DNA from: Bacteroidota bacterium
GTDB taxonomy: Bacteria > Bacteroidota > Rhodothermia > Rhodothermales > UBA10348
Assembly: GCA_027622005.1 (NCBI GenBank)
Contig: JAQBZH010000013.1
Coordinates: 1 to 58,269, forward strand
DNA length: 58,269 bases
Direction of reading: 5' to 3'
Shown one piece after another: positions 1,915 to 37,970 of this stretch (the first letter of the stretch is position 1; each line of letters starts with the position of its first letter). Below the pieces are notes generated by a model that worked only from the letters and a program-made list of their open reading frames with translations, had not been told where the DNA came from and made no database searches. Made by a program: the position numbers and the translations under genes.

Positions 1915-2991
1915 TTATTGAATTCTTCGGTTCACCAAGCGAGATACTCCACCCGGTCCCGCTGCCCATCCATGGTCGACATCAACGAAAGAAACCGTCC
2001 AGAAATTATCATCGCTAATCCTTGACCAGGTCAACCCGTTGTCGGACGAAAAGGCAGTTCCCGTAGGAGCAACCCCTACCAATGTGGGGGTTGGAGCTCC
2101 AGGTACGTAGGACGATCCGTAAACCGAGCCACCAATGGGGGCTTTTCCTGCAAAGGCCCAAGTCGCGCCGCCATCGGTTGATATGGCGACGTTTTGATAG
2201 ATGGAATCCCGTTGAGTAAAATCTCCACCGAGAACAGCTAAATGGTTGGTATCGAGGACAGATAGAGTTGAGATGCCTTGTGTGGTGGTTAAACTTTCAA
2301 TCGGTGTGATAACTTCCGACCACGTTGCCCCGAAATCGGATGTATGTAGGACCCGCGTATCCTTCGCAGAAGCTCCTGTCGCAATCCAACCATGCCCGCC
2401 TGCAGCCGTCTGGACACAGGTCCCGCTCGCGGCAAAAGCTCCTTCGCCTTCGCGGGCGTCCGGCACTAATCCTGGATCGATTCGCGACCACGTAACACCG
2501 CCGTCTGAGGTTTGAATAAGGGTAAATTCTCCTTCAAACGAATCGCTGAATGCTAGCCCATGTTGATTGTCCCAAAAAGAGAAGCAATCAAAAAAAGCTT
2601 TGGGATCTTGATTTTCAAAGGAGAGGGTCCAAGCCGCGCCGCCATCCACCGTTTTGTAAATCCGGGATGATGGACCGTTTCCAATCGATAATACAAAGGC
2701 TTCTTGCCCGTTAAAGGCATGGACATCGCGAAATTGCAGCGTATCCGCGCCTGGGACAAACATGGTCGACCATGAAACCCCACCGTCAACCGTTTTGACG
2801 ACTCGTCCAGCACTTCCCGCCGCCCACACCGTAGTGGTATCTACAGCATGAATGCCAATAAAAAAGGAAGTCGTGTCGTCGTATTGTCTCTCCCAAATGG
2901 GGTCCTGGACGGACAATACTATAGGTTCTGAAGGAGAACAGCCAATTCCAAGGACAAATAGGACGGCTACGACGAGAAAATTACGTGTCAT
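1915..2991 (-). CDS. YCF48/HCF136-like beta-propeller lipoprotein
   Basis: A secreted lipoprotein of 358 residues. I start it at the ATG at 2991, not the upstream codon at 3018, because this places a signal peptide directly at the N-terminus with an LGIGC lipobox. The rest consists of repeated blades carrying SxDGGxTW-type motifs (VDGGVSWS, VDGGAAWTL, TSDGGVTWS, STDGGATW, SSDNGLTWS), as in the photosystem II stability factor/YCF48 and sialidase-like propellers. In heterotrophic Bacteroidota such proteins are exported and their ligands are mostly unknown. It ends 27 bases before the start of cca and could be co-transcribed with it. Function beyond the fold is not claimed. Confidence 0.8.
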   Translation of the reverse strand: MTRNFLVVAVLFVLGIGCSPSEPIVLSVQDPIWERQYDDTTSFFIGIHAVDTTTVWAAGSAGRVVKTVDGGVSWSTMFVPGADTLQFRDVHAFNGQEAFVLSIGNGPSSRIYKTVDGGAAWTLSFENQDPKAFFDCFSFWDNQHGLAFSDSFEGEFTLIQTSDGGVTWSRIDPGLVPDAREGEGAFAASGTCVQTAAGGHGWIATGASAKDTRVLHTSDFGATWSEVITPIESLTTTQGISTLSVLDTNHLAVLGGDFTQRDSIYQNVAISTDGGATWAFAGKAPIGGSVYGSSYVPGAPTPTLVGVAPTGTAFSSDNGLTWSRISDDNFWTVSFVDVDHGWAAGPGGVSRLVNRRIQ

Positions 2992-3175
2992 GATCGGAGT
3001 GAGTTGGTGGAGCCCCAATTTACATGTTTGACATCAATTCCTAGTCATGTTTTGGGCTTGGAATGTTCCTTCCTGGGATTCCATCCATTTTCGGTCCGTC
3101 ATCCGAGACGAGGGACGGAACCTTTACTAAACGCTGCCATACTGATTTTTAGCCTCAACAAACCGATCCTATGCC

Positions 3176-3655
3176 GTGAAAAAGAAAGCCATCATCCTCG
3201 TAAGTGTTTTACTCTTGTCCCTAGCGGGCGTTTTTGCCTACAAGAGCGACGGTGCCCCTACACTGGTAGTGTACAAAAGTGCTTCTTGTGGATGCTGTAA
3301 AGGTTGGGTTGAGCACATGAAGGAAGCAGGATTCACTGTTGAGGTTCATGATGTCGAGGATATGACTGCGGTCAAGCAGCAACAGGGCGTTAACGGATCG
3401 CTTGCTTCCTGTCACACGGCTGTGATCGACGGCTATGTCATTGAAGGACACGTTCCAGCCGAAGATGTTACACGCCTACTAGCCGAGAGACCAGCCATTT
3501 TAGGATTGGCCGTTCCCCAAATGCCAGTGGGCACTCCCGGGATGGAGCAAGGGTCCCCTGAGAACTACGACGCGTACGATATTATCACATTTGACGGTTC
3601 GGGTGCTACATCCGTTTATCGCAGCGTGCCGGGCGGTTCTGCAACCAAGCTATAA
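3176..3655 (+). CDS. DUF411 metal-binding protein, exported
   Basis: A 159-residue protein with a GTG start (3176) and an N-terminal hydrophobic signal or anchor at residues 5-21. The DUF411 hallmarks are present: a thioredoxin-like VVYKSASCGCCKGW segment with Cys38, Cys40 and Cys41, then SCHT (Cys79-His80) and IEGHVP at 89-94. DUF411 proteins are usually found in copper or other heavy-metal resistance loci and probably bind metal in the periplasm. It stands alone on the plus strand between minus-strand genes. A multicopper oxidase is encoded about 50 kb away, too far for a shared operon. No Shine-Dalgarno sequence is obvious. Confidence 0.85.
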   Translation: MKKKAIILVSVLLLSLAGVFAYKSDGAPTLVVYKSASCGCCKGWVEHMKEAGFTVEVHDVEDMTAVKQQQGVNGSLASCHTAVIDGYVIEGHVPAEDVTRLLAERPAILGLAVPQMPVGTPGMEQGSPENYDAYDIITFDGSGATSVYRSVPGGSATKL

Positions 3656-3664
3656 TAACAAACG

Positions 3665-3698
3665 CGCTTAGCGGCCATAGTCTTCTGACCGCTAAGCG
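3665..3698 (+). terminator. Hairpin downstream of DUF411 gene
   Basis: A perfect 10-bp inverted repeat (CGCTTAGCGG ... CCGCTAAGCG) with a 14-base loop begins nine bases after the DUF411 stop codon. No T-run follows, so it may be a weak or factor-assisted terminator, or an mRNA-stabilising 3' stem. It lies between convergent genes. Confidence 0.45.
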
Positions 3699-3759
3699 GG
3701 CTGTGTATTGGGCAGAATTGATCTGATGTGATCAGAAGAATTCGTCTATTTAGATTCGA

Positions 3760-4485
3760 CTATTCTGCAGCGGGTTTGTCGATACGACGCACGCGGATGT
3801 TTTTAAACCATACTTCGCCGTGGTCACCTTGAAAAGCGATATGGCCGGTGGTGGTGGTGCCATACGTTGGATAATCCACCCATTTTGAAGCAGCTACAGC
3901 CGCTGTGTGCGTTTCGCTTCCTTTCTCGTATTCGACTACTTTGACGTCGTTGAGCCAATGCTCAACCCAATTGCCGTCGACCACGATCCGCGTTTTATTC
4001 CATTCACCCGCAGGCTTGTTGGCCGCTTCTGAAGGCGCTTGGACATCGTAGTTTGAAGCCGCACTGTTTTTGCCAATAACTCCGTCGTTGAAGGCCGCAT
4101 CATCCAATAATTGGTATTCAGGGCCTGTCATCCAAGGTGCATCCCCAGCGGATTCGTCCACATGCCACATAATGCCGCTATTTCCACCGGCAGCCACCTT
4201 CCATTCGAGTTCCAATTCAAAATTGGTAAAGGTTTCCCGGGTAATGATATCCATTCCGGCGCCTGGGGTCGATGCAAACATAGCCCCTTCCGTCATGGTC
4301 CAGCCGACTGGCATCACTTCTTGCTTGTAGCCCCGCCATTGGTCCATGGAAGTGCCGTCAAATAGTGCAATCCACTGGTGCCCCGTGGCGTCGTGATCCA
4401 TTTCTGACATTTCTGATTCAGCTTTATCGCTTGACTGGCAGCCTGTAAAGACCACAAACATCAATATAAAAAGAAGGGTTTTCAT
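3760..4485 (-). CDS. DUF1080 lipoprotein, 3-keto-disaccharide hydrolase family
   Basis: A 241-residue lipoprotein (VVFTGC lipobox at residues 11-16) with one concanavalin-like jelly-roll DUF1080 domain. Visible family features: WIALFDGTSMDQWRG near residue 37, EWKVAAGGNSGIMW in the middle, GPEYQLLDD, the HWLNDVKVVEYE strand and the closing IAFQGDHGEVWFKNIRVR. Characterised members cleave 3-keto-disaccharides or 3-keto-glucosides outside the cytoplasm. It is the last gene of a minus-strand run with a sugar isomerase/epimerase (21 bases upstream) and an MFS permease, which supports a role in sugar catabolism. The actual substrate cannot be read from the sequence. Confidence 0.88.
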   Translation of the reverse strand: MKTLLFILMFVVFTGCQSSDKAESEMSEMDHDATGHQWIALFDGTSMDQWRGYKQEVMPVGWTMTEGAMFASTPGAGMDIITRETFTNFELELEWKVAAGGNSGIMWHVDESAGDAPWMTGPEYQLLDDAAFNDGVIGKNSAASNYDVQAPSEAANKPAGEWNKTRIVVDGNWVEHWLNDVKVVEYEKGSETHTAAVAASKWVDYPTYGTTTTGHIAFQGDHGEVWFKNIRVRRIDKPAAE

Positions 4486-4506
4486 TCGTATTGGAAGGTG
4501 AAAAAG

Positions 4507-5448
4507 TTAAACATATTCAGGTTCGAGCGCAGTGCGGCAGAGCTCAAGAAGGTCTTTGGTTAGCTTGATGCCTTCGGCTTCAGAAACTTCAGAGCCTTCA
4601 AATTCAATACCAATATGGCCTCGATATCCTGCTGCCAGAACGATTCGCAACAGGCGCATATAGTCTTTATCGCGCTCGTTTCCAGCTGCGTCAAAATTGT
4701 GGCTCTTGGCACTAACACCTTTGGCGAAAGGCATGAGTTCTTCGACACCCAAATACATGTCGTACCAACCGCCCAGATCTTCGCCCATGTTGAAGTTTCC
4801 AAAGTCTGGAAGGGTACCACATCTCGGAAGATTTACGGTCGTCATGACCTCAGCCAACCACTTGCCGTTGGAAGAAATACCGCCGTGGTTTTCAACAATT
4901 ACATTGATTTCTGCTTGATTGCCATACTCAGTCAGCCTTCTCAGTCCATCTGCAGCTAGATCCCTTTGAATTTCCCAGATCCCTTCGCTGGAAGCATTGA
5001 CGCGGATGGAGTGACAACCCAATTCTTTAGCGATATCGATCCAGCGATAGTGGTTTTCGACCGCCAAGATCCGTTCTTTTTCATCGGGATCGCCGAGACG
5101 ACCTTCGCCATCGCACATTATGAGGACGTTCGTTATGCCCTCATTAACGCAGATATTCTTGAGCTCCTGAACATACTTTGGGTCCCTTGATTCCTCTTTC
5201 ATGAACGAATTGACGTACTCCACCGCATCAATCCCAAATGCTTCCCGAGCCCTTATTGGAAACTCAAGGTTGGTCATTTCTTTGGCCTGTAGCGCCTGAT
5301 GCAACGACCATTGGGCTAGAGAAATCTGAAAAAGAGGCGCCACCGGAATAGCGATAGGCTCCTTATCGGGGGCGCAAGCAAGGGGAAATAAGCTGGCTCC
5401 TGCCACGCCGAGAGCGGTGCGCTTCATAAAATCACGTCGATCAATCAT
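4507..5448 (-). CDS. Sugar phosphate isomerase/epimerase, Tat-exported
   Basis: A 313-residue xylose-isomerase-like TIM-barrel protein. The N-terminus carries a twin-arginine signal (RRDFMKRTALGVAGASLF), so it is probably exported folded with its metal. Barrel features include QISLAQWSLH, the VIVENHGG strand with its metal-ligand Glu and His, GTLPDFGNF, AKSHNFDAAG and IGIEFEGSE near the end. The start at 5448 lies two bases after the stop of the MFS gene, with AGAGG overlapping that gene's end as ribosome site, so the two are translationally close. With DUF1080 and the permease it probably interconverts keto-sugar intermediates. Exact reaction unknown. Confidence 0.85.
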   Translation of the reverse strand: MIDRRDFMKRTALGVAGASLFPLACAPDKEPIAIPVAPLFQISLAQWSLHQALQAKEMTNLEFPIRAREAFGIDAVEYVNSFMKEESRDPKYVQELKNICVNEGITNVLIMCDGEGRLGDPDEKERILAVENHYRWIDIAKELGCHSIRVNASSEGIWEIQRDLAADGLRRLTEYGNQAEINVIVENHGGISSNGKWLAEVMTTVNLPRCGTLPDFGNFNMGEDLGGWYDMYLGVEELMPFAKGVSAKSHNFDAAGNERDKDYMRLLRIVLAAGYRGHIGIEFEGSEVSEAEGIKLTKDLLELCRTALEPEYV

Positions 5449-5450
5449 AA

Positions 5451-6665
5451 TTAAACCTCTGAGGAATCTACCCGGTCCTTAAATGCAAAGATAAACAAGA
5501 CCATTATCAAGCAGGCAAATGCCGCTGGAATCCACCAAAAAGACTGCCAGGCGGCAGCGGAAAGGGTTTCTCCGCCATCTTTTAATAAGTTATTCAGCCA
5601 ACCGGAGACCTGAGCGCCGATCAGCATGCCGAGGCCCAGCGTTATCAAGACCAAAAGGCCCTGCGCCTGCCCGCGGATTTCAGGTGTTGATTTTTTATCT
5701 ACGTAAATCTGACCGGTGACGAAGAAAAAGTCGTAGCAAATGCCGTGGAGCAATACGCCAAACATAATCATCCAGACCACGCTGGAGGGTGCTGCAGCGG
5801 CGAAAAGCGCATATCGGAGCACCCAAGCGCCCATGCCCACAACGAGCATCCACTTGACGCCCAGACGCCGGAAGAAGAAGGGCATAAGTACCATGAAGAG
5901 GACCTCGGACATCTGCCCGAAGCTCATCTTGAAGGCCACATTCGACAGATTGACGTCGTTTGCAAAGATGGGAGCGAAGTTATAGTACGCTGCAAGGGGG
6001 ATGCAGATCAGGAAGGAGGAGATAATGAAGACGTAAAACGAGCGACTGCCCAGCTTGGCCATGGCATCGAGGCCCAAAATCTCGCGAGCGGTAATTTTAC
6101 CCTTTCCGGCCCCAGGAGGAGGTGTGTGGGGGAGCGAGAAGCTAAACAACCCCATAAGAATAGAGGCTCCGCCGGCCACGTAAAACGGAACCGCAGTCGT
6201 TTCCGCTTTAAGGCCCAAACTGACCATCACACCGGCCACAATCCAGCCAATCGTTCCAAACACCCGAATGAGCGGAAACTGCTTCTCCTGATCGGTTATG
6301 TTGTGAAACGCGAGGGTATTCGTCAGCCCAATGGTTGGCATGTAGCACAGCATGTGAACCGCCAACAGGACGATGAAAACGACGGGGGATCCCGAATAAA
6401 AAGGTGCCGCAATAATGGCCACGCCGCCCAGCAAATGCATCACCCCTAGAACCTTTTCAACATCAAAATAGCGATCCGCGATCATGCCCAAGAAAAAAGG
6501 CGAAATGACAGCAGCCAGGGGTCCTACGGTATAGGCCCAATGAGAAATATCCCCCATCCCGTTGTCCCCCATGAAGATACCGACGGTCACGTACCAGGCT
6601 CCCCAGATAAAAAACTGGAGAAACATCATGACGGACAATCGAGCGCCGAGAGCAGTTTGATTCAT
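5451..6665 (-). CDS. MFS permease, nucleoside:H+ symporter (NupG-like) family
   Basis: A 404-residue integral membrane protein with about 12 predicted hydrophobic helices. The opening MMFLQFFIWGAWYVTVGIFM and the loop FFLGMIADRYFDVEKVLGVMH are characteristic of the NHS (NupG/XapB-like) branch of the major facilitator superfamily. In Bacteroidota and Planctomycetes this branch commonly sits beside Gfo/Idh oxidoreductases, DUF1080 proteins and sugar isomerases, and is thought to carry sugars or sugar derivatives rather than nucleosides. Here it lies between the DUF5916 gene (29 bases upstream) and the isomerase (2 bases downstream), so one transcript is likely. Confidence 0.88.
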   Translation of the reverse strand: MNQTALGARLSVMMFLQFFIWGAWYVTVGIFMGDNGMGDISHWAYTVGPLAAVISPFFLGMIADRYFDVEKVLGVMHLLGGVAIIAAPFYSGSPVVFIVLLAVHMLCYMPTIGLTNTLAFHNITDQEKQFPLIRVFGTIGWIVAGVMVSLGLKAETTAVPFYVAGGASILMGLFSFSLPHTPPPGAGKGKITAREILGLDAMAKLGSRSFYVFIISSFLICIPLAAYYNFAPIFANDVNLSNVAFKMSFGQMSEVLFMVLMPFFFRRLGVKWMLVVGMGAWVLRYALFAAAAPSSVVWMIMFGVLLHGICYDFFFVTGQIYVDKKSTPEIRGQAQGLLVLITLGLGMLIGAQVSGWLNNLLKDGGETLSAAAWQSFWWIPAAFACLIMVLFIFAFKDRVDSSEV

Positions 6666-9007: not shown

Positions 9008-9481
9008 TTATGGCAACGTCGCGATACATTCAACTTCAAAAAGTGCTCCTAGAGCCAATCCCTTAGATCCAAAGGCAGAGCGAGCTGGCTTAGGGCCGGG
9101 GAAATATTGGACGTAAACCGCATTAAAATCGGCCCAACGGCTCATATCCTCGATCATGACTAGACATTTGACCACTCGGTCCATCGAGGAGCCAAATTGT
9201 TCAGCCGTAATTTTGATATTGTTCATTACCTGATGAGCCTGCTCATCAAAGCCGCCTTCCGGAAACTCACGTGTGCCGGGCATAACGCCAATTTGACCGG
9301 ACATATACAACATGTTTCCGACCCGAACTGCTTGTGAAAACGGAGCATCCGGGAGCGCACTTTCACTGTTGAGGAATTCCACTTCTGGCTTTGGAGTCTC
9401 GACTGGTGCTATTTCGGCGAGTTCGCTTTGTTGGCAGCCCGTAAAGGTCAAAAAGAGGGCGAGCGCAATTAGATATTTCAT
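9008..9481 (-). CDS. RidA-family lipoprotein
   Basis: A 157-residue RidA/YER057c/UK114-family protein, but with a lipoprotein signal (LTFTGC, residues 11-16), so it is placed outside the cytoplasm. The domain spans about residues 35-155: PFSQAVRVGNMLYMSGQIG, then AHQVMNNIKITAEQFG, VVKCLVMIEDM, and the closing PARSAFGSKGLALGALFEVECIA. The conserved Arg of the RidA active site is in PARSAFG. Cytoplasmic RidA deaminates reactive enamines; the role of lipoprotein versions is unknown. It follows the M20D amidohydrolase by 11 bases, so both are probably one unit acting on an exported amide or amino-acid derivative. Confidence 0.85.
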   Translation of the reverse strand: MKYLIALALFLTFTGCQQSELAEIAPVETPKPEVEFLNSESALPDAPFSQAVRVGNMLYMSGQIGVMPGTREFPEGGFDEQAHQVMNNIKITAEQFGSSMDRVVKCLVMIEDMSRWADFNAVYVQYFPGPKPARSAFGSKGLALGALFEVECIATLP

Positions 9482-9492
9482 GATACTATTGA

Positions 9493-10785
9493 TTATTGGG
9501 TGGATGCTTGATTCATGTAATCTAGCGTCAGATTTATCAGCGTGCGAAGTCCCAGTTTCATCCCAGATTCGTCGATAAAAAAGTCAGGAGTGTGATGGGA
9601 TACTTTAACATCGGCGGGAACGGAAAGGGGCTTTCCCCCCACAAATAAAAACAACCCGGGTACTTCATTGGCGAAAAATGAAAAGTCTTCGGCGCCGGTT
9701 CTGGCATCGATCAAAACAACATTTTCTTTGCCGGCCGTACGTTCCAGCGTATCCATCATTTGGTCGGTCAGCCCAGGATCATTAAACGTGACCGGATAGT
9801 GAGCGCTGTAAGGCAAATCGACAACGGCGGTAGCACCATTGGACTCAGCCGTATTAGTTACAATGGTTCGAAAACGGGAATGAAGCTGCGTGCGCATTTC
9901 GGGATCGAACGTGCGAATGGTTCCGATCATTTCCAGCTCTTCCGGGATGATATTGGACCGGACTCCGCCGTGAATGGCCCCGACGGTCACCACGGCCGCC
10001 GCCTTGGTCAATTCGAGGCTACGACTCACAATCGTTTGAAGATTATTGACGATTTGAGCGGCTGTTACGATAGGGTCAACGCCCATCCAGGGAGCAGATC
10101 CGTGTGCTTGTTTGCCTTTAACGGTAATTCTGAAGTCATCGACGGCGGCCATCATGCCTTTTGGCCGATATTCAAGCTTTCCAACATAAGTCCCGGCAGC
10201 TATGTGTAGTCCAAAAATGACGTCTACACCCTCCATCACGCCTTCCGAGACCATCAATTCCGCACCGCCGTCTTCTCCCGGAGGAGCTCCTTCTTCGGCG
10301 GGTTGAAAGATGAATTTAACCGTTCCATGGAGTTGGTCGCGCATCCCGGCGAGCGCCTCGGCGGCCCCCATAAGCATAGCCACGTGGGTATCGTGTCCGC
10401 AGGCATGCATGACCGGCACTTCTTCACCTCGATAAAGACTGATCACTTCCGATTTGAATGGAAGATCGACGCGTTCTTTTACCGGAAGCGCGTCCATATC
10501 CGCTCGAAGGGCAACGGTTGGGCCCGGAAAGGCTCCTTTCAAGATCCCGATCACACCAGTATGCGCCACTTCCGTGGTCACTTCGAGACCCAGATTGCGC
10601 AGATGTTCAGCCACTACGCCGGCCGTCCGAAACTCCCGGTTGGATAGCTCAGGATTGGCATGGAAGTCTCGCCGCCACTCAATAACCTTGGGCTCGAGCG
10701 CATTGGCAATTTGATCCACCAGGTCCTGCGCCCCAACGGGCGCAGCAACCATGATGGTTATAAGGCAAAGGAATAACTTTCTCAT
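9493..10785 (-). CDS. M20D amidohydrolase (hippuricase/IAA-amino acid hydrolase type)
   Basis: A 430-residue zinc or manganese amidohydrolase with a signal peptide (ending VGAQ, about residue 20). Visible metal and active-site motifs: ALRADMDALP, HACGHDTHVAMLMGAAEAL, FQPAEEGAPPGEDGG, FGLHIAAG and the C-terminal GAEDFSFFANEVPG. The small dimerisation domain (DDFRITVKGKQAHGSAPWMGVDP) sits in the middle as usual. M20D enzymes hydrolyse N-acyl amino acids such as hippurate or indoleacetyl conjugates. Its export suggests use of external conjugates. It is followed directly by the RidA lipoprotein. Exact substrate not inferable. Confidence 0.9.
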   Translation of the reverse strand: MRKLFLCLITIMVAAPVGAQDLVDQIANALEPKVIEWRRDFHANPELSNREFRTAGVVAEHLRNLGLEVTTEVAHTGVIGILKGAFPGPTVALRADMDALPVKERVDLPFKSEVISLYRGEEVPVMHACGHDTHVAMLMGAAEALAGMRDQLHGTVKFIFQPAEEGAPPGEDGGAELMVSEGVMEGVDVIFGLHIAAGTYVGKLEYRPKGMMAAVDDFRITVKGKQAHGSAPWMGVDPIVTAAQIVNNLQTIVSRSLELTKAAAVVTVGAIHGGVRSNIIPEELEMIGTIRTFDPEMRTQLHSRFRTIVTNTAESNGATAVVDLPYSAHYPVTFNDPGLTDQMMDTLERTAGKENVVLIDARTGAEDFSFFANEVPGLFLFVGGKPLSVPADVKVSHHTPDFFIDESGMKLGLRTLINLTLDYMNQASTQ

Positions 10786-18678: not shown

Positions 18679-21000
18679 TTGCGCCCTTTTATTTTAATAC
18701 TGCTGTTTTTGGTATTTAACGATCACGATGTGGTCGCGCAGGAAGTCGAGACGCACTCAGCGAACCGGCCCAAAATCGGCCTCGTCTTGAGTGGGGGATC
18801 GGCAAAAGGAATCGCCCACGTGGGAGTGCTAAAGGTTTTTGAAGAAGCTGGAATCCCAATCGATGTGATTTCTGGGGCGAGCATGGGAGCAATTGCCGGG
18901 GGGCTCTATTCCATTGGGTTTAGGGCGAAGCAACTTGAGGCCATCGTAAACGACCCGGACTGGCAGCAAACCTTGGGAAACGCGGTCCGAAGTAGAGATC
19001 AGAATTTGATGAGCAAGGTGTCTTCTCAAGGTGTTCTGATTGCACTTCCGACAAGAGGGACGGAATTCAAAATACCGAGCGGTGTTATTTCAGGCCAAGA
19101 GATCATAACGCTGCTGGCGAATTGGACATGGTCGTTTCAGGAAGAAGTCGATTTGACCCGATTGCCCATTCCTTTAGCCGTGATCGCAACCGACCTAAAG
19201 ACGGGGCAGGCAGTCTCCCTGAAAGGGGTATCTCTTTCCACGGCGCTACGCGCGAGTATGTCAATTCCGACCCTTTTTGCCCCTGTTGACATTTCTGGTA
19301 CAACGTACATCGATGGTGGCGTTTCGAGGAATTTGCCGGCGATCGATGCTATCGAGTTAGGAGCAGATATCTTGATCGGGGTTGATGTCGGCTCACAGGT
19401 TGACGACCAAAATCTTGACGATCCGACCCTGATTGATGTTTTGATGCGCACCGCCTCCTATTTGGGATATCAGTCCGATTTAGAGCAGCGAGCACTTCTG
19501 GATGTTCTGATTCGCCCCGATATCTCCGAATTGTCCATCACGGATTTTGAAAATGCAGAGGAATGGGTAAAGCGCGGGGAAGCAGCGGCTCGCGCTGCGC
19601 TCCCTCGAATAGAACAGTTATTAGATTCGTTGGGAATTGCCAGATCGACCCGACCCTACAGTCTTCCTAAGCCGGTATCGAAATTTGTAACTAATCTTGA
19701 AATTGAGGCTGGAATCGAAGAAGCAGCGATTTTGGTCGATCAACGACTCGGCCTCGTTCTTCCAGCTCTTTTGGGCCCAAATGAGGTCGATAGCGCCGTT
19801 TCCAATGTCTATTCTACCGGACTATTTGACTTAGTGACCTACGAGTTTCGACCGATATCCGATAGTACCTATACGTTGGTGATTAAGGCACATCCACGAA
19901 AAACACCAGATCGCGCAGGGTTGGGAGTTCGATACGACTCAGAAAATGCTGCGCAAATATTGTATTCAGTCGCCCTGCGAAATCGGCTGCGATTCGGATC
20001 CATCACTGAGCTTAGGGTCAGTGTTGGCCGGCAAAAACAGGTACAAGCCGTCTATATGAGTGCCAATACAGGAGATCAAAAATTTAACGTGGGTGTTGGC
20101 GTCGATTATTCAGAGGCTCCTGTTCGATTTTTCCTTCCTGATCGGTTTGCGGAGTCCATCGATACAGACCCTGACGTGTCGGTTTTAAGCATCGGATTGA
20201 ATGTTTTCAGTGTCAATTTATTGGCTGGTTATTCTGTAGACCCGGCCACTAAGTTAGGATTCAGAATCAAAGCTGAACAAATTCTAGTCCGACGTGAGGT
20301 GGCTACCCTCTCCACCGCTCCGGGCGTCTTTGATCCGCTTCCCACTGGGAACCAAGACCAATCGGCAATAACAGCTTCGTTTTCCATTGATAGGGACACG
20401 TTCGACGACCGCTCATTTCCCGAAAACGGGATGGAATTGTCGGTTAGAGGCGGTATTGGATTTTCCAACGCTGAACCAAGAATCTCGACCTCTTCCAAAT
20501 CTGGCGGGTCACGGTTTCAATTTTTTCGCTTCGATGCGCAAGGATATGTGTCGGTAACGCCAACCTTATCCGTTTTTGTTCGCACGGCATTGGGATACGG
20601 GTCTGGGGCAGCTCTACCGCTAAACTATCACACTTTTATTGGTGGAACCCGTCCCACGACGGTGCTTCATGGCATCTTTTTCCCCGTTTACGGCCTCGAC
20701 TCCCAGGCTCGTTTCGGTCGGAAAGCCTACCTGGGTGCCATAGGCGCGCAATGGGAGTTTCGAAAAAATGTCTATAGTCGAATTCTTTTCAACGCCGGCG
20801 GTACATCCGACCTATCGATAGATAACGAAAAATCAAGGCTGCCTGCTGAAGTCAGCGATTTGCTGGCCGAGCCGGCGTCCGTAGGTTTTGGATTTGAGTT
20901 AGGTGTTCGAACGCCTATGGGGCCGGCTTCCATGGTGATGAGTACCGATCATCTCTTAAGATGGCCCGAAATGGGGATTAGTGTTGGATATTCTTTCTAA
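18679..21000 (+). CDS. Patatin-like phospholipase with POTRA/Omp85-type barrel
   Basis: A 773-residue exported protein starting at TTG 18679, with a signal peptide to about residue 20. The patatin domain (about 30-330) shows the oxyanion GGSAKG at 39-44, the nucleophile GASMG with Ser68, and the catalytic YIDGG with Asp212. It is followed by a POTRA-like module (about 340-410) and a C-terminal surface-antigen/Omp85-like beta-barrel ending in GYSF. This is the layout of the type Vd autotransporter PlpD group, in which the lipase is delivered to the cell surface by its own barrel. A lipase acting on phospholipids is likely. Confidence 0.88.
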   Translation: MRPFILILLFLVFNDHDVVAQEVETHSANRPKIGLVLSGGSAKGIAHVGVLKVFEEAGIPIDVISGASMGAIAGGLYSIGFRAKQLEAIVNDPDWQQTLGNAVRSRDQNLMSKVSSQGVLIALPTRGTEFKIPSGVISGQEIITLLANWTWSFQEEVDLTRLPIPLAVIATDLKTGQAVSLKGVSLSTALRASMSIPTLFAPVDISGTTYIDGGVSRNLPAIDAIELGADILIGVDVGSQVDDQNLDDPTLIDVLMRTASYLGYQSDLEQRALLDVLIRPDISELSITDFENAEEWVKRGEAAARAALPRIEQLLDSLGIARSTRPYSLPKPVSKFVTNLEIEAGIEEAAILVDQRLGLVLPALLGPNEVDSAVSNVYSTGLFDLVTYEFRPISDSTYTLVIKAHPRKTPDRAGLGVRYDSENAAQILYSVALRNRLRFGSITELRVSVGRQKQVQAVYMSANTGDQKFNVGVGVDYSEAPVRFFLPDRFAESIDTDPDVSVLSIGLNVFSVNLLAGYSVDPATKLGFRIKAEQILVRREVATLSTAPGVFDPLPTGNQDQSAITASFSIDRDTFDDRSFPENGMELSVRGGIGFSNAEPRISTSSKSGGSRFQFFRFDAQGYVSVTPTLSVFVRTALGYGSGAALPLNYHTFIGGTRPTTVLHGIFFPVYGLDSQARFGRKAYLGAIGAQWEFRKNVYSRILFNAGGTSDLSIDNEKSRLPAEVSDLLAEPASVGFGFELGVRTPMGPASMVMSTDHLLRWPEMGISVGYSF

Positions 21001-27871: not shown

Positions 27872-29374
27872 TTACTTAATCGACCCAGACATCCGCTTAA
27901 CGATCCATTTGTTGATGATTATAAACAATCCGATCATTAGCGCCCATTGAACCAACAGCGTCATTAGGCTTCCCGGATCGAACGGATCAAACCAGCGATC
28001 TGTGACTGATTGGGACAACCACCAAGCGAGGAGAGTCACGGCAGCAACTGGAATGAAATACTTGACGATTATCACCCAGGCCTGACTGACTTTCCAATCG
28101 CCATCTTCACCGTCAAGACTTTCGCTTCGCATTTTTTCGACGCCATTTCGGATCACAATAAATGCGACGAAGGCCCCAGACACCATCAGGGCAACCCCCC
28201 AGACGAAGTCTTGATTGCCGAGAATATCTAGGTTTACGGCAGAAGGAATTCCGAGCAGGTAGCTAAATCCGATGACCATCAAAATGGCTTTCGTTCTGGA
28301 TAAACCAGCATCGATGAACACCCGGGTCGGTAGTTCAAGCTGAGCAATTAAGGACGAAAAACCGGCAAAAGTGAGTCCGAGAAAGAACATAATTGCCAAC
28401 GGGCTCCCTAAAAACATGCGTGCGAATAGCTGAGGCATCCAGATAAAGGTCAGCCCCGTGGAAGCTGGCCCACTGTTTCGCATGATTTCCAATACTTCGA
28501 CCCGGCTCATACCCATTTCGGTTTGTAAAACGGCAAATACGGTTGAGAAGACCATCATTGCGGCCAACAAAGACACGAAATTGTTACTTACTGCGGTAGC
28601 CACGGCGCTTTTAACCACATTGTGCTTATGGCTCATGTAAGCCGCATACGTGAGGAAAAGGCCCCACCCGGCTCCCGTATCCCAGGCGTTTTGCGTCAGC
28701 GCCTCGATCCAAATCTTTGGTTTGGCTAACTGGGCCCAATCTGGAGTGAAGAGGTAAACCAGTCCTTCCGAAGCGCCGGGTAGCATCAAGGCCCTGACCG
28801 TGGCTATCACCACGATGGCCAGAAGCGTCGGGACCAACACCTTATTGACCCGCTCAATCGAGGATACCCCTTTATAAATGGCTAGGCCGCCCAACCCCAT
28901 TGCGATCGCGTGAAAAAATAGCGGCCAACCACCACTTTGATAATCATCCCAAACCGCCATCGCCGCTTCCGTAGACTGTGGTAGGGGTGAAATAACCATT
29001 TGTATGAGGTAGTAAATACACCACCCAACCACCACCGAATAAAAAAACGTGATCGCTGTGGCGACAAAGGCCACAAATGCACCCATCCAGGCAAATCGAT
29101 CTCCGCCTTCTTTTATGAACGTGCTGACCACGCCAACGCGGTTGCGGCGCCCCCACACGTATTCGATCATAATTAGGGGGATACTCCAAGCGAACAGAAA
29201 CACCACCCATGCAATTAGAAACGCTCCAGCTCCATCATCGCCACCATTTTGCGCGGCTATTCGTGGAAATCGCCAGATATTGCCTGTTCCTACAGCGATT
29301 CCGAGTACGCTCAGGAAAAAGCCCCAGCGCGAAGAAAAACGAGCGCCCACGCTCGAGTCCATGGTGTTTGACAT
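27872..29374 (-). CDS. Neurotransmitter:sodium symporter (NSS) family transporter
   Basis: A 500-residue sodium-dependent transporter with about 11-12 helices, in the LeuT/MhsT-like family. The first helix carries the sodium- and substrate-site segment AVGTGNIWRFPRIAAQNGG, and GIPSAVNLD, the GWGLFLTYAAYMSHK helix and a Trp-rich C-terminal helix follow. Bacterial NSS proteins take up amino acids by Na+ symport; the specific amino acid is not inferable. The gene is convergent with rhlE and faces an unrelated SUI1 gene. Confidence 0.9.
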   Translation of the reverse strand: MSNTMDSSVGARFSSRWGFFLSVLGIAVGTGNIWRFPRIAAQNGGDDGAGAFLIAWVVFLFAWSIPLIMIEYVWGRRNRVGVVSTFIKEGGDRFAWMGAFVAFVATAITFFYSVVVGWCIYYLIQMVISPLPQSTEAAMAVWDDYQSGGWPLFFHAIAMGLGGLAIYKGVSSIERVNKVLVPTLLAIVVIATVRALMLPGASEGLVYLFTPDWAQLAKPKIWIEALTQNAWDTGAGWGLFLTYAAYMSHKHNVVKSAVATAVSNNFVSLLAAMMVFSTVFAVLQTEMGMSRVEVLEIMRNSGPASTGLTFIWMPQLFARMFLGSPLAIMFFLGLTFAGFSSLIAQLELPTRVFIDAGLSRTKAILMVIGFSYLLGIPSAVNLDILGNQDFVWGVALMVSGAFVAFIVIRNGVEKMRSESLDGEDGDWKVSQAWVIIVKYFIPVAAVTLLAWWLSQSVTDRWFDPFDPGSLMTLLVQWALMIGLFIIINKWIVKRMSGSIK

Positions 29375-29573: not shown

Positions 29574-29831
29574 CTAACCGCCGGCTTTTTTAACTGTATA
29601 CCCAGCGTCGGACAGAATCTTGACCAATCGATCTCGTTGATCTCCCTGAATTTCGACGATCCGGTCCTTTACGGTGCCTCCGACGCCGCATTGCGCCTTC
29701 AGTTTGCTGGCAATCTGTTTGAGCGCGTCTTCGCTACCTGGGAGTCCCGATATGACGGTTACGCCACTTCCCCTTCGGCCCTTAGTTTCGCGACCAACTC
29801 GTACCACTCCGTCATTGGGATAAAAAGACAT
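29574..29831 (-). CDS. yciH: SUI1/eIF1-like protein YciH
   Basis: An 85-residue eIF1/SUI1-family protein. I prefer the ATG at 29831; a TTG nine codons upstream is possible. The family core is clear: GVVRVGRETKGRRGSGVTVI, KQIASKLKAQCGVGGTVKD, IEIQGDQRDRLVKILSDAG and the conserved C-terminal VKKAGG. Bacterial YciH binds the small ribosomal subunit and discriminates against incorrect initiation complexes. It is preceded by the DUF2911 gene, about 40 bases upstream on the same strand. Confidence 0.92.
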   Translation of the reverse strand: MSFYPNDGVVRVGRETKGRRGSGVTVISGLPGSEDALKQIASKLKAQCGVGGTVKDRIVEIQGDQRDRLVKILSDAGYTVKKAGG

Positions 29832-29870
29832 TGTATTGCGGGCCTCAAAAGGAATCAACCGAAAATCAGT

Positions 29871-30893: not shown

Positions 30894-32042
30894 ATGACCT
30901 CTCTTCTCAAATCAATCTCCTGCCTAGCCGTGGTACTTGCCATCGTGGTTTTTAATGGTCAACCGCTCGCTGCCCAAACCCGAACTTTTTCCGAGTCGCC
31001 CCAAATCCCTCTTGGACTGCGGACGGATCGGTCGGCATCACTCACGTTTGCCGACATCGATGCTGATGGGGACTTGGACGTTTTGGTAGCTAATGGCCGG
31101 CATTGGCCGGCGCAAAACGAGGAATTTATTAATAACGGCATGGGGCGGTTTATGGAAAGCTATCCGCTAGCCGTAGAAAGCCGGACTACCTACACGTTGC
31201 CCATGGCAGATCTAGATGGAGATGGGGATTTGGATGCCATCGAAGCCAACGACCTTACACAGAACAGAGTCTATTTGAATAATGGCAAGGGTCGATTTCA
31301 TGAAATCGCACCGCTTGGACCGGAAGTCGCTTCAACTCGAAGTGTGACGATTGCCGATCTGAATGGCGATGGAAAACAAGATGCGATCGTTACGAACAGA
31401 GGTGAGGAAAATGTCATTTATCTCGGAAATGGTGACGGTACTTTTGGCGCCAAAATACCATTCGGAACGAGCGACGATTCCACCATTTCGGTGGCCGTCG
31501 CAGATATCGATTTGGATGGCAAACCAGACTTGGTGTTGGCAAATCGGGACGGAGGGGCCAACTTTATCTATCTGAATGATGACCAACTGAGCTTTTCCAG
31601 ATCAATTCCCTATGGAAGTGGAAAAGACGAAACGCGCTCGACCGTGGTTGGCGATCTCAATGCCGATGGACATCTCGACCTTGTGACAGCAAATATTGGG
31701 GAGGCCAATGGAATCTATTTTGGCGACGGAAAAGGAAAGTTCGATCAGGGGATAACGTTTGGCACTTCGGACAGCCAGAGTTACGATGCGTTACTTGTTG
31801 ATCTAGATAAGGACGGTGATTTAGACATTGTCATTGCGAACGTGGGCTCACAAAATGCCGCTTATTTCAATGACGGAACCGGTCGGAATTTTGTTGAAGT
31901 GTCGTTTGGGGGAGCTAAGGACCAGACCTACGGTATTGCCGTAGGTGACGTGAACGGTGATGGGTTTCCGGATATCGGAGTCGCGAATTCTGATGAGCTA
32001 AATGGGATCCATTTGAATGTGCCTAAACGCGCCTCGAATTAG
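30894..32042 (+). CDS. FG-GAP/VCBS repeat secreted protein
   Basis: A 382-residue exported protein (signal peptide ending about residue 27, LAAQ). It has about seven FG-GAP/VCBS units, seen as repeated DxDxDGxxDxxxAN calcium-loop motifs such as ADIDADGDLDVLVAN, ADLDGDGDLDAIEAN and ADLNGDGKQDAIVTN. Such proteins form calcium-binding beta-propellers. The ligand is unknown. Its TAG stop overlaps the stop of the opposite-strand RidA-MBL gene in the four bases TTAG at 32039-32042. Confidence 0.85.
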   Translation: MTSLLKSISCLAVVLAIVVFNGQPLAAQTRTFSESPQIPLGLRTDRSASLTFADIDADGDLDVLVANGRHWPAQNEEFINNGMGRFMESYPLAVESRTTYTLPMADLDGDGDLDAIEANDLTQNRVYLNNGKGRFHEIAPLGPEVASTRSVTIADLNGDGKQDAIVTNRGEENVIYLGNGDGTFGAKIPFGTSDDSTISVAVADIDLDGKPDLVLANRDGGANFIYLNDDQLSFSRSIPYGSGKDETRSTVVGDLNADGHLDLVTANIGEANGIYFGDGKGKFDQGITFGTSDSQSYDALLVDLDKDGDLDIVIANVGSQNAAYFNDGTGRNFVEVSFGGAKDQTYGIAVGDVNGDGFPDIGVANSDELNGIHLNVPKRASN

Positions 32043-33478
32043 TTGACGATAATCGTCTCCAAGTGAACCGGTGTTAGAACCTTAGAGTGTGGCGAAATCT
32101 TGCCAACTGCTTCAATAAACGGATTGATGTTTCGATCGATACCGGCCTGTTGGGAATAATCATAGGGCAGCCTGAAATTGTCCCAGTGAGTCGGAATAAC
32201 TATGGCCGGGTACCCAGTTACTTTTAAAAGTCGCTCATCGTATTTGTAGAGTCCTAGTCTGGATCCGTTGATACCGGCCAAAAGGATGTCTGGATGAATG
32301 CCTTCCAATTCACGCTCTGCAAAGTTCATGGACCCCATGGTTAGGACCTCGTGGCCTTCAAAACGTGCCAAAAACATGAGCGATCCTCCCTCGATGAATT
32401 GATCGATGCGAAGGGGCGCTTTGAGGGGCGTGTTTTCATCAAACCGTCTGGAATCGAAATAGTGTTTTTCATTTAAGGCGGAATGAATGGACGGGACTAC
32501 CCGAACGGAGAAATTATCAAACTGATAGTCTTCGCCGCCTCCAACTGCATACAATTGCTCTTCAGGGATACCATAGGCTCTCAAAATGTTCATCGTCGTC
32601 TCGGTGCCGATGACTTTCGCGCCCGTTTTACGTGCGATAAAAGGCACGTCTCCGAGGTGATCAAAATGGCCGTGATGAACCAAGATGAAGTCCGCCTTTT
32701 TAATGATACTGTCTATCAAAACAGTGTCCGAAACGGCCGTGGCATCTCGTCCAAAGTCTGGGCGATGATCATTAGGGTCACCTCCACCGCCATACTTCAA
32801 GCGGGAGATATAGGGATCGACAAGGACGGTCACTTTTCCATCGGTCATTTCCCAGCCGGCAGCCCCCAGATATTTCATGGATAGCGGAGTTCGAGCGTTG
32901 TCGCCATGAGCGATAGGCACGCCAGTGTCCATGACCTCAACAATCATTTCGATTTCGATGGCCTGTCCCCGCGGTAATGTCGCCATTCCGACCGCCGAGC
33001 GCGCGTGTTTTCCTCGCTCTCCAAAAACTTCGACGATCAGATCCGAAAACCCATTAATAACCGCAGGTTGATTTCCAAAACTGGGGTCTGAATTCACCAT
33101 TCCAAGTACTTTCACCACGCGAACGACACGATTCAGATTACCCAACATGTCTTTCAAGACAGCCAGTTGGTTGATGGCCGTTTGGCGAGCGCCTTGATAA
33201 CCTTGTTCGATGGTCAGATCGGCGCCCAATTTTCCGTGTAATTCTGTCCCGTCTGGGTTCTTAGGCCCTTTTCCGGCGGTAAATATCAAATTTCCGGTCC
33301 GAACCCCGTGCACGTAATTGGCCACCGGTTTGGCGGGAGGGGACAGTGTTATTCCTAGCTCAACAAGCCGCGCTTCGGGGTCATAAACGACCTCATTTTG
33401 CGCCAAAACACGATTTGGAGTAATGAAAATGAAGATTCCAACCGCGAAAAGAAGAATGCTTTTTAATGGTCTTAACAT
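32039..33478 (-). CDS. RidA-metallo-beta-lactamase fusion protein, exported
   Basis: A 479-residue protein with signal peptide (about 1-27, VLAQ) and two domains. Residues about 30-185 are a RidA/YjgF-type domain (LGITLSPPAKPVANYV, TGNLIFTAGKGP, and ARSAVGMATLPRG with the conserved Arg160). Residues about 190-479 are a UlaG-like metallo-beta-lactamase fold with HGHFDH at 269-274 as metal ligands and the later strand VVIPTHWDNF. A RidA domain normally handles reactive enamine/imines and UlaG hydrolyses lactones; a fusion suggests a bifunctional enzyme or a sensor. Two other RidA- or MBL-type genes are elsewhere in this window. I am sure of the fusion, not of the reaction. Confidence 0.88.
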   Translation of the reverse strand: MLRPLKSILLFAVGIFIFITPNRVLAQNEVVYDPEARLVELGITLSPPAKPVANYVHGVRTGNLIFTAGKGPKNPDGTELHGKLGADLTIEQGYQGARQTAINQLAVLKDMLGNLNRVVRVVKVLGMVNSDPSFGNQPAVINGFSDLIVEVFGERGKHARSAVGMATLPRGQAIEIEMIVEVMDTGVPIAHGDNARTPLSMKYLGAAGWEMTDGKVTVLVDPYISRLKYGGGGDPNDHRPDFGRDATAVSDTVLIDSIIKKADFILVHHGHFDHLGDVPFIARKTGAKVIGTETTMNILRAYGIPEEQLYAVGGGEDYQFDNFSVRVVPSIHSALNEKHYFDSRRFDENTPLKAPLRIDQFIEGGSLMFLARFEGHEVLTMGSMNFAERELEGIHPDILLAGINGSRLGLYKYDERLLKVTGYPAIVIPTHWDNFRLPYDYSQQAGIDRNINPFIEAVGKISPHSKVLTPVHLETIIVN

Positions 33479-33856: not shown

Positions 33857-35266
33857 CTAAAGAGGCCTCGGCATCTTAGCCCCGGACGCCTTCAGCCACG
33901 CCCCAAGATTTGCTTTCATTTCGGTGGCTCTTTCAGGCATTTCTCTTGCAAGGTTGGTTGTTTCCGACAAATCGTTAACGACGTCGTAAAGCTCCACCTC
34001 GTCTTGGTCGTAAAAATGGATGAGCTTGTAGTTGCCTTGACGAATAGCGCTTCCTAGTCGGTTTTCACCATGAAAAGCGTAGTTAGGGTAGTGGAAGTAA
34101 ATGGCTTCCCTTTCCATGTTTCCTGTTTGGCGAAGGATGGGAAGGATGCTTTCGCCATCCAGCGGTACGTCTGGAGTAGGATCTAGTCCTGCGACATCAA
34201 GGATGGTGGCAAAGAAGTCCGTGCTGATCACAGGTTCCCCCGACACGACCCCCGCCTTGATCTGGCCCGGCCATCTCACGATAAGAGGAACCCTGATTCC
34301 GCCTTCGTAAAGATGCCCTTTTACGCCGCGAAGAGGAGCGAGGTCGGTAACACCGCCGTACGCGCCGTTGTCAGAGGTAAAAATAACGAGGGTCTCTTCG
34401 GCAAGGTTTAATTCATCCAGCTTTGCTAATACGCGTCCCACAGCATCGTCCATTGCTTCAATCATGGCCGCGTACGTGGTGCTCGACTCGATGCCATCGC
34501 CATAATCTTTGAATCCTGGGCGATTGGCGTACTTGTCCACTAATTCCTGGGGGGCTTCCATCGGCCAGTGGACCGTGTATGGCCAAAGAGCAACGAAAAA
34601 TGGCTCATCTTGATGCGCTTCAATGAACCCCATGGCCTCATCGGCGAGCCGAAACGGTAGGTACTCACCTTCTTGACGGTCCTTCAATTCCGGATTTCTG
34701 TAGGGGTCAAAGAAACTAGGGGGGCCGCCGAAACTCAGTCCGCCCACATTGACATCGAACCCTTGATGTTGCGGCCTCCGGCTCGGTTCGACCGTCTCCA
34801 TTTCACGGTCGGTACCCGAAAGATGCCACTTTCCAAAAAAGCCGGTCGTGTATCCACCATCCTTGAGTCTTTCGGCAAGTGTCACATAGTTGAGATCGAG
34901 ATAATCGATCATTTCAGCAGCCCCCAGCGTGGCTCCAGGTGGTCGAAATCGTTCCTGGTTACCCGACACATGGTTGGTGAGGGCCAATCTGGCGGGCGAC
35001 ATTCCGGTCATAATGGCAGCGCGCGTTGGCGAGCAAACTGGAGCGGCTGCATAACCATCGGTAAAACGCATCCCTTGAGACGCGAAGTGATCCAACCTCG
35101 GCGTTTCCAATTTTTCGTTTCCCTGGATGTGGAGATCGGTCCATCCAAGGTCGTCGACCATGATCAAAATTACATTCGGCCGCCTTGTTGGTTCTTCGAT
35201 TTGCGTTTTGCCATTGCATCCTGAAACCATTATTAGGGCGAGTGCTGCGACGAAAAGTGGCTTCAT
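33857..35266 (-). CDS. Sulfatase lipoprotein (arylsulfatase type)
   Basis: A 469-residue sulfatase with a lipoprotein signal (VSGC, 14-17). The alkaline-phosphatase-fold motifs are visible: NVILIMVDDLG (31-41) with the metal-binding Asp pair, CSPTRAAIMTG with Cys78 as the residue to be converted to formylglycine (type CxPxR), GKWHLSG, and FTSDNGAYGGVTD later in the protein. Sulfatases of this kind remove sulfate esters from algal or animal glycans. An activating enzyme is not in the window. The lone gene has no adjacent polysaccharide-utilisation genes. Confidence 0.92.
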   Translation of the reverse strand: MKPLFVAALALIMVSGCNGKTQIEEPTRRPNVILIMVDDLGWTDLHIQGNEKLETPRLDHFASQGMRFTDGYAAAPVCSPTRAAIMTGMSPARLALTNHVSGNQERFRPPGATLGAAEMIDYLDLNYVTLAERLKDGGYTTGFFGKWHLSGTDREMETVEPSRRPQHQGFDVNVGGLSFGGPPSFFDPYRNPELKDRQEGEYLPFRLADEAMGFIEAHQDEPFFVALWPYTVHWPMEAPQELVDKYANRPGFKDYGDGIESSTTYAAMIEAMDDAVGRVLAKLDELNLAEETLVIFTSDNGAYGGVTDLAPLRGVKGHLYEGGIRVPLIVRWPGQIKAGVVSGEPVISTDFFATILDVAGLDPTPDVPLDGESILPILRQTGNMEREAIYFHYPNYAFHGENRLGSAIRQGNYKLIHFYDQDEVELYDVVNDLSETTNLAREMPERATEMKANLGAWLKASGAKMPRPL

Positions 35267-37253: not shown

Positions 37254-37970
37254 GTGGATTCCATCTTCGCGCATTTTACAGAGCCCAATAACCCATTTAT
37301 TCTTTTCGGTACGGTTCACCTTACGGTCAGCGCTGTTTTGGCTGTGATTGGGTTTCTGTTAGTTCGACAAGGAATGAAGGCGAACGAGTCCTCTCGACGG
37401 CGGATTCGCGTGGGAATGGCGCTCGTCTTCCTTTTTTTCGAAATCGAATGGCAAGTGTGGCACTTGTGGCATGGGGTCTGGTCGACGGATATCAATTTGC
37501 CGCTGCATCTCTGTAGCGTGATGATTTGGGTGAGTATGTACGGCCTGTGGTTCGAAGACCGAAGGGTGTATGGACTGATATACTTTCTGGGGATCGCGGG
37601 CGCCATTCAGGCTATAATTACCCCAAATGCGAATGAAACATTCCCCCATATCCGTTTTATTTCGACCATGATTACCCATAGTTTGTTGGTCGTTGGTGGC
37701 TTTTGGGTGGTTTTCGTTGAAAAGTACCGCCCGACTTTCAAATCTGCCTTAAATGCCTTTCTCGGGCTAAACGCCTATGCATTTGTAGTCTATTTCATCA
37801 ACAAAGCCGTCGGATCCAACTATCTCTACGTGGTGGACAAACCTTCGGTGGCCACCGTTATGGACTATTTCCCAGAGTGGCCTTGGTACATCCCAATTCT
37901 GGAAGGGATTTTGATTGTACTAATGGCCCTCATGCTGCTCCCATTCCGGAGAGCAAAGAAGGCGAATTAA
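37254..37970 (+). CDS. YwaF/TIGR02206 family membrane protein
   Basis: A 238-residue integral membrane protein with a GTG start and about seven helices. It matches the TIGR02206 (YwaF) family: the loop INLPLHLCSVMIWVSMYGLW, the IYFLGIAGAIQAIITP helix, then HIRFISTMITHSLLVVGGFW and the tail PEWPWYIPILEGILIVLMALM. The family is of unknown role. It follows the unknown 218-residue gene and its 3' end lies 11 bases from the convergent serine hydrolase gene. Confidence 0.82.
   Translation: MDSIFAHFTEPNNPFILFGTVHLTVSAVLAVIGFLLVRQGMKANESSRRRIRVGMALVFLFFEIEWQVWHLWHGVWSTDINLPLHLCSVMIWVSMYGLWFEDRRVYGLIYFLGIAGAIQAIITPNANETFPHIRFISTMITHSLLVVGGFWVVFVEKYRPTFKSALNAFLGLNAYAFVVYFINKAVGSNYLYVVDKPSVATVMDYFPEWPWYIPILEGILIVLMALMLLPFRRAKKAN

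Follow-up and report, generated by a model that had tools for sequence, protein, structure and literature searches.

A predicted exported Rid1 domain fused to a metallo-beta-lactamase-fold domain suggests a candidate extracytoplasmic catabolic module in Bacteroidota

Results

The fusion gene and its two domains

The window analysed here is the whole 58,269-nucleotide stretch of contig JAQBZH010000013.1 (GenBank assembly GCA_027622005.1), from a Bacteroidota bacterium placed in the Rhodothermales. Positions 32039–33478 of its reverse strand form a single uninterrupted open reading frame of 479 amino acids, and the features of this protein given below are all encoded on that strand. The protein is laid out as a signal peptide, a Rid domain (residues 35–182; 32933–33376), a linker (residues 183–200; 32879–32932) and a metallo-beta-lactamase (MBL)-fold domain (residues 201–479; 32042–32878). 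In Pfam, PF14588 (residues 35–165, 1.7e-18) and PF01042 (residues 50–181, 1.7e-13) match the first domain, and PF13483 (residues 201–431, 4.9e-9), together with PF12706, matches the second. The N-terminus, MLRPLKSILLFAVGIFIFITPNRVLA followed by QN, is a predicted Sec-type signal peptide (residues 1–26; 33401–33478) with an Arg/Lys-containing n-region, a hydrophobic stretch and a cleavage-like site between VLA and QN. Equivalents of this signal peptide are present in both fused and split homologues. An AlphaFold model predicts both domains confidently (mean pLDDT 85.9), with low pLDDT at residues 186–194 of the linker, which we delimited by comparing the junction between homologues, and an uncertain orientation of the domains relative to each other (pTM 0.61). 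The first-pass annotation had proposed a single exported protein with a Rid and an MBL domain, and the reading frame, with exactly these boundaries, the Pfam matches and the N-terminal sequence all bear this out.

The Rid domain, previously labelled RidA, does fall within the Rid (YjgF/YER057c/UK114) family but appears to belong to the Rid1 subfamily and not to archetypal RidA, since it scores 37.9 bits against the RidA profile TIGR00004, below the cut-off of 106.25. Its top Rid matches in the PDB by sequence are 3d01, PA0814 (6e-24), 2otm, ACIAD3089 (9e-15), and RidA-type entries rank lower (8e-5 and weaker). The closest proteins by both sequence and fold are Atu1372 (3d01), PA0814, SO_1960 and ACIAD3089. 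PA0814 and ACIAD3089 have been classed as Rid1 and both deaminate imines in vitro (PMC5619798). These two proteins (9bk9 and 9bkb/9bki, respectively) resemble the window domain, a putative imine/enamine deaminase, in their fold, in the equivalents of RidA Arg105 and Glu120 and in matching PF14588 and PF01042. They are, however, short stand-alone proteins, whereas the window domain is predicted to be exported and is joined to a metallohydrolase. Arg160 (codon 32999–33001), the counterpart of RidA Arg105, and Glu175 (codon 32954–32956), which by spacing corresponds to Glu120, are invariant in all 53 Rid1 homologues.

The MBL domain carries the ligand set of its superfamily, an HxHxDH motif and two further histidines within an MBL fold. 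The motif occupies residues 269–274 (32657–32674), followed by His332 (32483–32485) at the position of the third site-1 ligand and His431 (32186–32188), the motif-5 ligand, within the sequence PTHWD. His269, His271, Asp273, His274 and His332 are invariant in 80 of 80 homologues and His431 is present in 79, with one gap; the surroundings of these ligands are strongly conserved as well. The earlier placement of Arg160 and of the HxHxDH motif is thus confirmed to the residue, and the catalytic residues of both domains are retained among the homologues.

The domain had also been described as UlaG-like. The MBL fold stands, but UlaG is not the closest relative: the nearest fold is TM1162 of the UPF0173 family (Z 23.6 across 214 residues), with UlaG (2wyl) further away (Z 20.3). 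UlaG, the L-ascorbate-6-phosphate lactonase, shares membership of the superfamily and a similar core, and to our knowledge has no Rid partner. Membership of the UlaG, class B beta-lactamase and RNase J groups was rejected on profile scores far under the cut-offs (24.2 bits against 306 for UlaG, NF008688; 22.7 and 21.4 bits against 100 and 240 for the class B profiles NF012229 and NF033105), and the fold similarity to RNase J/CPSF73 reflects the shared MBL core; Pfam gave no match to a beta-CASP domain. The UPF0173 profile itself, NF001911, gave 60.1 bits and its cut-off of 144 was not reached. UPF0173 proteins share with the fusion the nearest fold, the HxHxDH motif and a conserved DP motif. 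The UPF0173 relatives that we examined have no signal peptide and keep both the histidine of the FGHS motif and the motif-4 aspartate. In the fusion family the former is an alanine and the latter, at Ser383 (32330–32332), a serine in all 80 homologues; in 15 of 15 UPF0173 sequences from related genomes motif 4 reads GDT, aligned to GSM. Because of these two replacements the domain appears to form a separate family related to UPF0173, and since the motif-4 aspartate has been exchanged for serine its metal site may be altered.

The FG-GAP partner

Convergent with the fusion, and overlapping its stop codon by 4 bp, lies a forward-strand gene for a predicted exported FG-GAP beta-propeller protein (30894–32042) with seven repeat stretches in Pfam. 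A genome scan yielded 79 distinct loci, and within these FG-GAP is the most constant partner of the MBL gene. Of the 79 loci, 57 have it close to the MBL gene, 48 of them within 150 bp, although many of these loci come from related Flavobacteriaceae and the counts are hence not independent. The second most frequent neighbour cluster reaches 15 loci. The FG-GAP gene may be upstream of, downstream of or convergent to the MBL gene, and the adjacency also occurs, in other orientations, in Gemmatimonadota and in the window's own group. Many MBL loci have an FG-GAP gene and no Rid gene. The family members are full-length homologues with a median identity of 45% to the window protein, which is modelled as a beta-propeller (pLDDT 91.5). 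Its predicted fold matches CRTAC1 (the top hit), ADAM22-LGI1, integrins and GlcNAc-binding fungal lectins, the last with the highest percent identity among these matches (20–22%). Given these matches, it is reasonable to guess that the propeller binds a ligand or serves as a scaffold.

Origin of the fusion

Rid1 and MBL are encoded as separate neighbouring genes in 15 of the 79 loci, two of which (L055 and L057) have the FG-GAP gene placed between them, and as one reading frame in five scanned loci and the window. The MBL protein of the split pairs carries its own signal peptide; the fused frames have a short linker where the split relatives have a stop codon and that signal peptide. The fused frame occurs at full length in three other genomes of the window's genus (83, 82 and 78% identity), and a fused frame is also present in two metagenome-assembled genomes (MAGs) of Gemmatimonadota (L007 and L008), which argues that the fusion is not a chance event; it is real and conserved. 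The genus itself is mixed, with four genomes fused, the window included, and two split. We found no conserved internal start with a Shine-Dalgarno sequence in the linker of the fused frames, and the linker of L007 has no possible start codon at all, which rules out the production of two proteins through internal initiation. The existence of two separate genes, named in the first-pass annotation as evidence against a fusion, therefore does not hold for the window but does describe most Rid-linked relatives.

In a tree of 84 MBL domains the fused copies occupy two separate positions, the window's genus and Gemmatimonadota L007/L008, and a single clade of fused copies was rejected (AU p 0.003) on what is a quick MBL-domain tree with many weak branches. 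The fusion thus appears to be derived, a late merger of two adjacent genes for predicted exported proteins, that probably arose at least twice. Such recurrence is good evidence that Rid1 and MBL are functionally linked, and the separate adjacent genes in most Rid-linked relatives argue in the same direction. Tight adjacency of the two is seen in MAGs and genomes labelled Rhodothermales, Flavobacteriia genera, Cyclobacteriaceae, Acidobacteria and Proteobacteria, and linked genes are present in the cultured strains Formosa algae KMM 3553, Cellulophaga baltica DSM 24729 and Polaribacter sp. DS7-9. No Rid gene adjoins the MBL gene in 63 of the 84 tree rows.

Exported Rid proteins and the wider neighbourhood

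The first-pass annotation regarded export of a Rid domain as exceptional, the cytoplasm being the norm. This premise does not describe the Rid1 group: a signal peptide or lipobox was recognised in 51 of the 53 Rid1 homologues from the scanned loci, by a simple sequence rule plus reading and with L007 (GTG start) added by eye, and 44 of 394 genomes of the phylum match the fusion strongly, nearly all through the Rid part only. The two copies that have no signal peptide are Flavobacterial (L063 and L065). Exported Rid1 therefore appears to be common in this phylum, a lineage that had gone unremarked in the first-pass annotation, as had the FG-GAP gene and the split ancestry of the fusion.

That annotation was right, in contrast, about a RidA lipoprotein elsewhere in the window (9008–9481, reverse strand), which has the lipobox FTGC and matches PF01042 at 1.7e-30. 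It scores 113 bits against TIGR00004, over the cut-off, and so represents archetypal RidA and a lineage separate from Rid1. A homologue is found in 22 of the 27 genomes of the family. Adjacent to it, after a gap of 11 bp, is a gene on the same strand for a predicted exported M20 amidohydrolase (9493–10785; PF01546), and the two adjoin in 11 of the 20 loci examined, the window included. The region 9008–10785 would thus be a second, independent unit of an exported Rid and an amide hydrolase. With a third Rid, which has a Tat-like leader in L131, the view that Rid export has evolved more than once is upheld.

Similar pairings recur among the relatives of the fusion. Loci of Formosa, Cellulophaga and Maribacter have the order M19 dipeptidase, amidohydrolase, FG-GAP, amidohydrolase, (Rid1), MBL, the amidohydrolases being predicted to be exported, and some continue with genes for a creatininase-family protein, an asparaginase-like protein, a beta-hydroxyaspartate dehydratase-like PLP enzyme and a DASS symporter. 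A shortened version, close to a SusD-family gene, is present in Polaribacter sp. DS7-9 among others. In locus L129 an FG-GAP-amidohydrolase fusion (2820–5912, 1031 aa) is flanked by an M19 gene on one side and the gene for a Rid1 lipoprotein on the other. Loci L131 (6634–8341), L138 (4006–7961) and L147 (8545–10282) place a predicted exported Rid1 close to two other enzymes, a DgaE-family PLP ammonia-lyase that has a Tat-like leader and a predicted exported amidohydrolase, and PLP chemistry may possibly take place outside the cytoplasm there. A second Rid, also with a Tat-like leader, was confirmed by profile in L131 and is predicted from clustering in L138 and L147. Taken with the RidA lipoprotein-M20 loci, these arrangements suggest that an exported Rid and an exported amide hydrolase form a repeated pairing.

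Upstream of the fusion by 379 bp, on the same strand, is a gene for a predicted exported sulfatase (33857–35266; PF00884). Sulfatases of the same cluster are found near the MBL gene in L004, which also has a GH95 glycosidase, L022 and L028; with so few loci an obligate partnership is ruled out, and the sulfatase is possibly an occasional partner. A neurotransmitter-type symporter (27872–29374) was likewise rejected as a partner, as it recurs in three loci, two of them from the same genus. Between this symporter and the FG-GAP gene the window encodes an SUI1/eIF1-like translation factor (29574–29858), here in a bacterium.

Discussion

We consider the chances about evenly balanced that the fusion is an exported Rid1 deaminase joined to a dinuclear-metal MBL hydrolase which, together with the FG-GAP protein, makes up an extracytoplasmic degradation module. 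An exported amide hydrolase (M19, amidohydrolases or M20 in the relatives) or an exported PLP lyase would give rise to a short-lived enamine or imine. M19 enzymes include renal dehydropeptidase, which releases dehydroamino acids. The Rid1 domain would then convert the enamine or imine to a 2-oxo product and ammonia, and the MBL domain would cleave an ester, lactone or amide linkage of the same molecule, with the propeller binding the substrate or acting as a scaffold for the enzymes. The first-pass annotation put forward extracellular processing of reactive imines or lactones, which is plausible. An amide hydrolase of the type seen in the relatives was not found beside the window fusion, and searches of the window genome with the Flavobacterial amidohydrolase (AMH2) and the L129 M19 enzyme gave distant matches only and no close homologue.

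A simpler explanation would be general damage control, in which Rid1 clears stray imines from the envelope, the MBL protein is an unrelated housekeeping enzyme and the two merged through co-expression and not through a shared pathway. Exported Rid1 is indeed widespread without MBL in the phylum genomes, and many MBL loci have FG-GAP and lack Rid. This explanation would, however, have to account for the independent recurrence of the fusion, for the tight adjacency of Rid1 and MBL over several taxa and for the recurring proximity of exported Rid and amide hydrolase genes, and we regard it as rather unlikely. It is also conceivable, if improbable, that the substrates are oxidised amino sugars or their lactones, such as N-acetylglucosaminate or a lactone derived from chitin: an amidohydrolase would deacetylate, a lyase deaminate, Rid clear the enamine and MBL open the lactone, while the propeller would bind GlcNAc. 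The chemistry would parallel that of the ong cluster, in which the breakdown of N-acetylglucosaminate involves a deacetylase, a PLP deaminase and OngD, an essential RidA protein whose role is unknown (PMC9537276). A DgaE-family lyase near exported Rid1, the percent identity of the propeller to GlcNAc-binding lectins and the distant relationship of the MBL domain to the lactonase UlaG would fit with such a pathway. Yet DgaE-type enzymes are absent from the MBL loci, the ong enzymes are predicted to be cytoplasmic, the top fold match of the propeller is CRTAC1 and not a lectin, and the Flavobacterial neighbours (M19, asparaginase-like, beta-hydroxyaspartate dehydratase-like and DASS symporter) point rather to peptides or C4 acids.

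The replacement of the motif-4 aspartate by serine in all 80 homologues, along with the loss of the UPF0173 FGHS histidine, raises the question of whether one domain is degenerate or structural, the MBL part for example being a binding domain and not an enzyme. Subclass B3 beta-lactamases combine the same HxHxDH, His and His ligand set with serine at this position, and the conservation of H269, H271, D273, H274, H332 and H431 and of their surroundings further speaks against degeneration, which we think quite improbable. That a sequencing error or frameshift removed a stop codon between two genes, as the split state of close congeneric relatives might hint, is scarcely credible: three more congeneric genomes are fused in frame at 78–83% identity, the MBL signal peptide has gone and been replaced by a short linker, and a second fusion exists in Gemmatimonadota.

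The wider proposal, of a module of exported Rid1, a new metallohydrolase family and FG-GAP that performs imine/enamine chemistry outside the cytoplasm in Bacteroidota, Gemmatimonadota and some Proteobacteria, is one to which we again give about even chances. It would recruit M19 enzymes and amidohydrolases in some lineages, and its members would repeatedly fuse (Rid1-MBL at least twice; FG-GAP-amidohydrolase). The components are of known kinds and the module looks undescribed; a literature search for fused Rid and MBL domains, for export of a Rid protein or for a unit of FG-GAP and MBL returned nothing relevant, which is not proof that they are unreported. Rid proteins have been studied for their role in the cytoplasm, where they guard against the reactive enamines that PLP enzymes make. 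A known parallel in the catabolism of oxidised chitin is the ong cluster (OngB deacetylase, OngC PLP deaminase and OngD RidA; PMC9537276), which likewise directs an amide hydrolase, a deaminase and a Rid protein at one nitrogenous substrate; it differs in being predicted to be cytoplasmic and in having no MBL or FG-GAP component described. An exported Rid1 lineage that is fused or linked to specific hydrolases would imply that many marine bacteria have imines forming outside their cytoplasm. What Rid1 to Rid3 act on in vivo has been stated to be unknown (PMC4433059), and the compound on which the partner hydrolases act may offer a concrete route to the physiological substrate of Rid1.

Elsewhere in the window, positions 18679–21000 encode another domain fusion, of a patatin phospholipase domain to an Omp85 barrel in an arrangement like that of type Vd secretion, and positions 37254–37970 a bacterial membrane protein of the TMEM164 family (PF14808).
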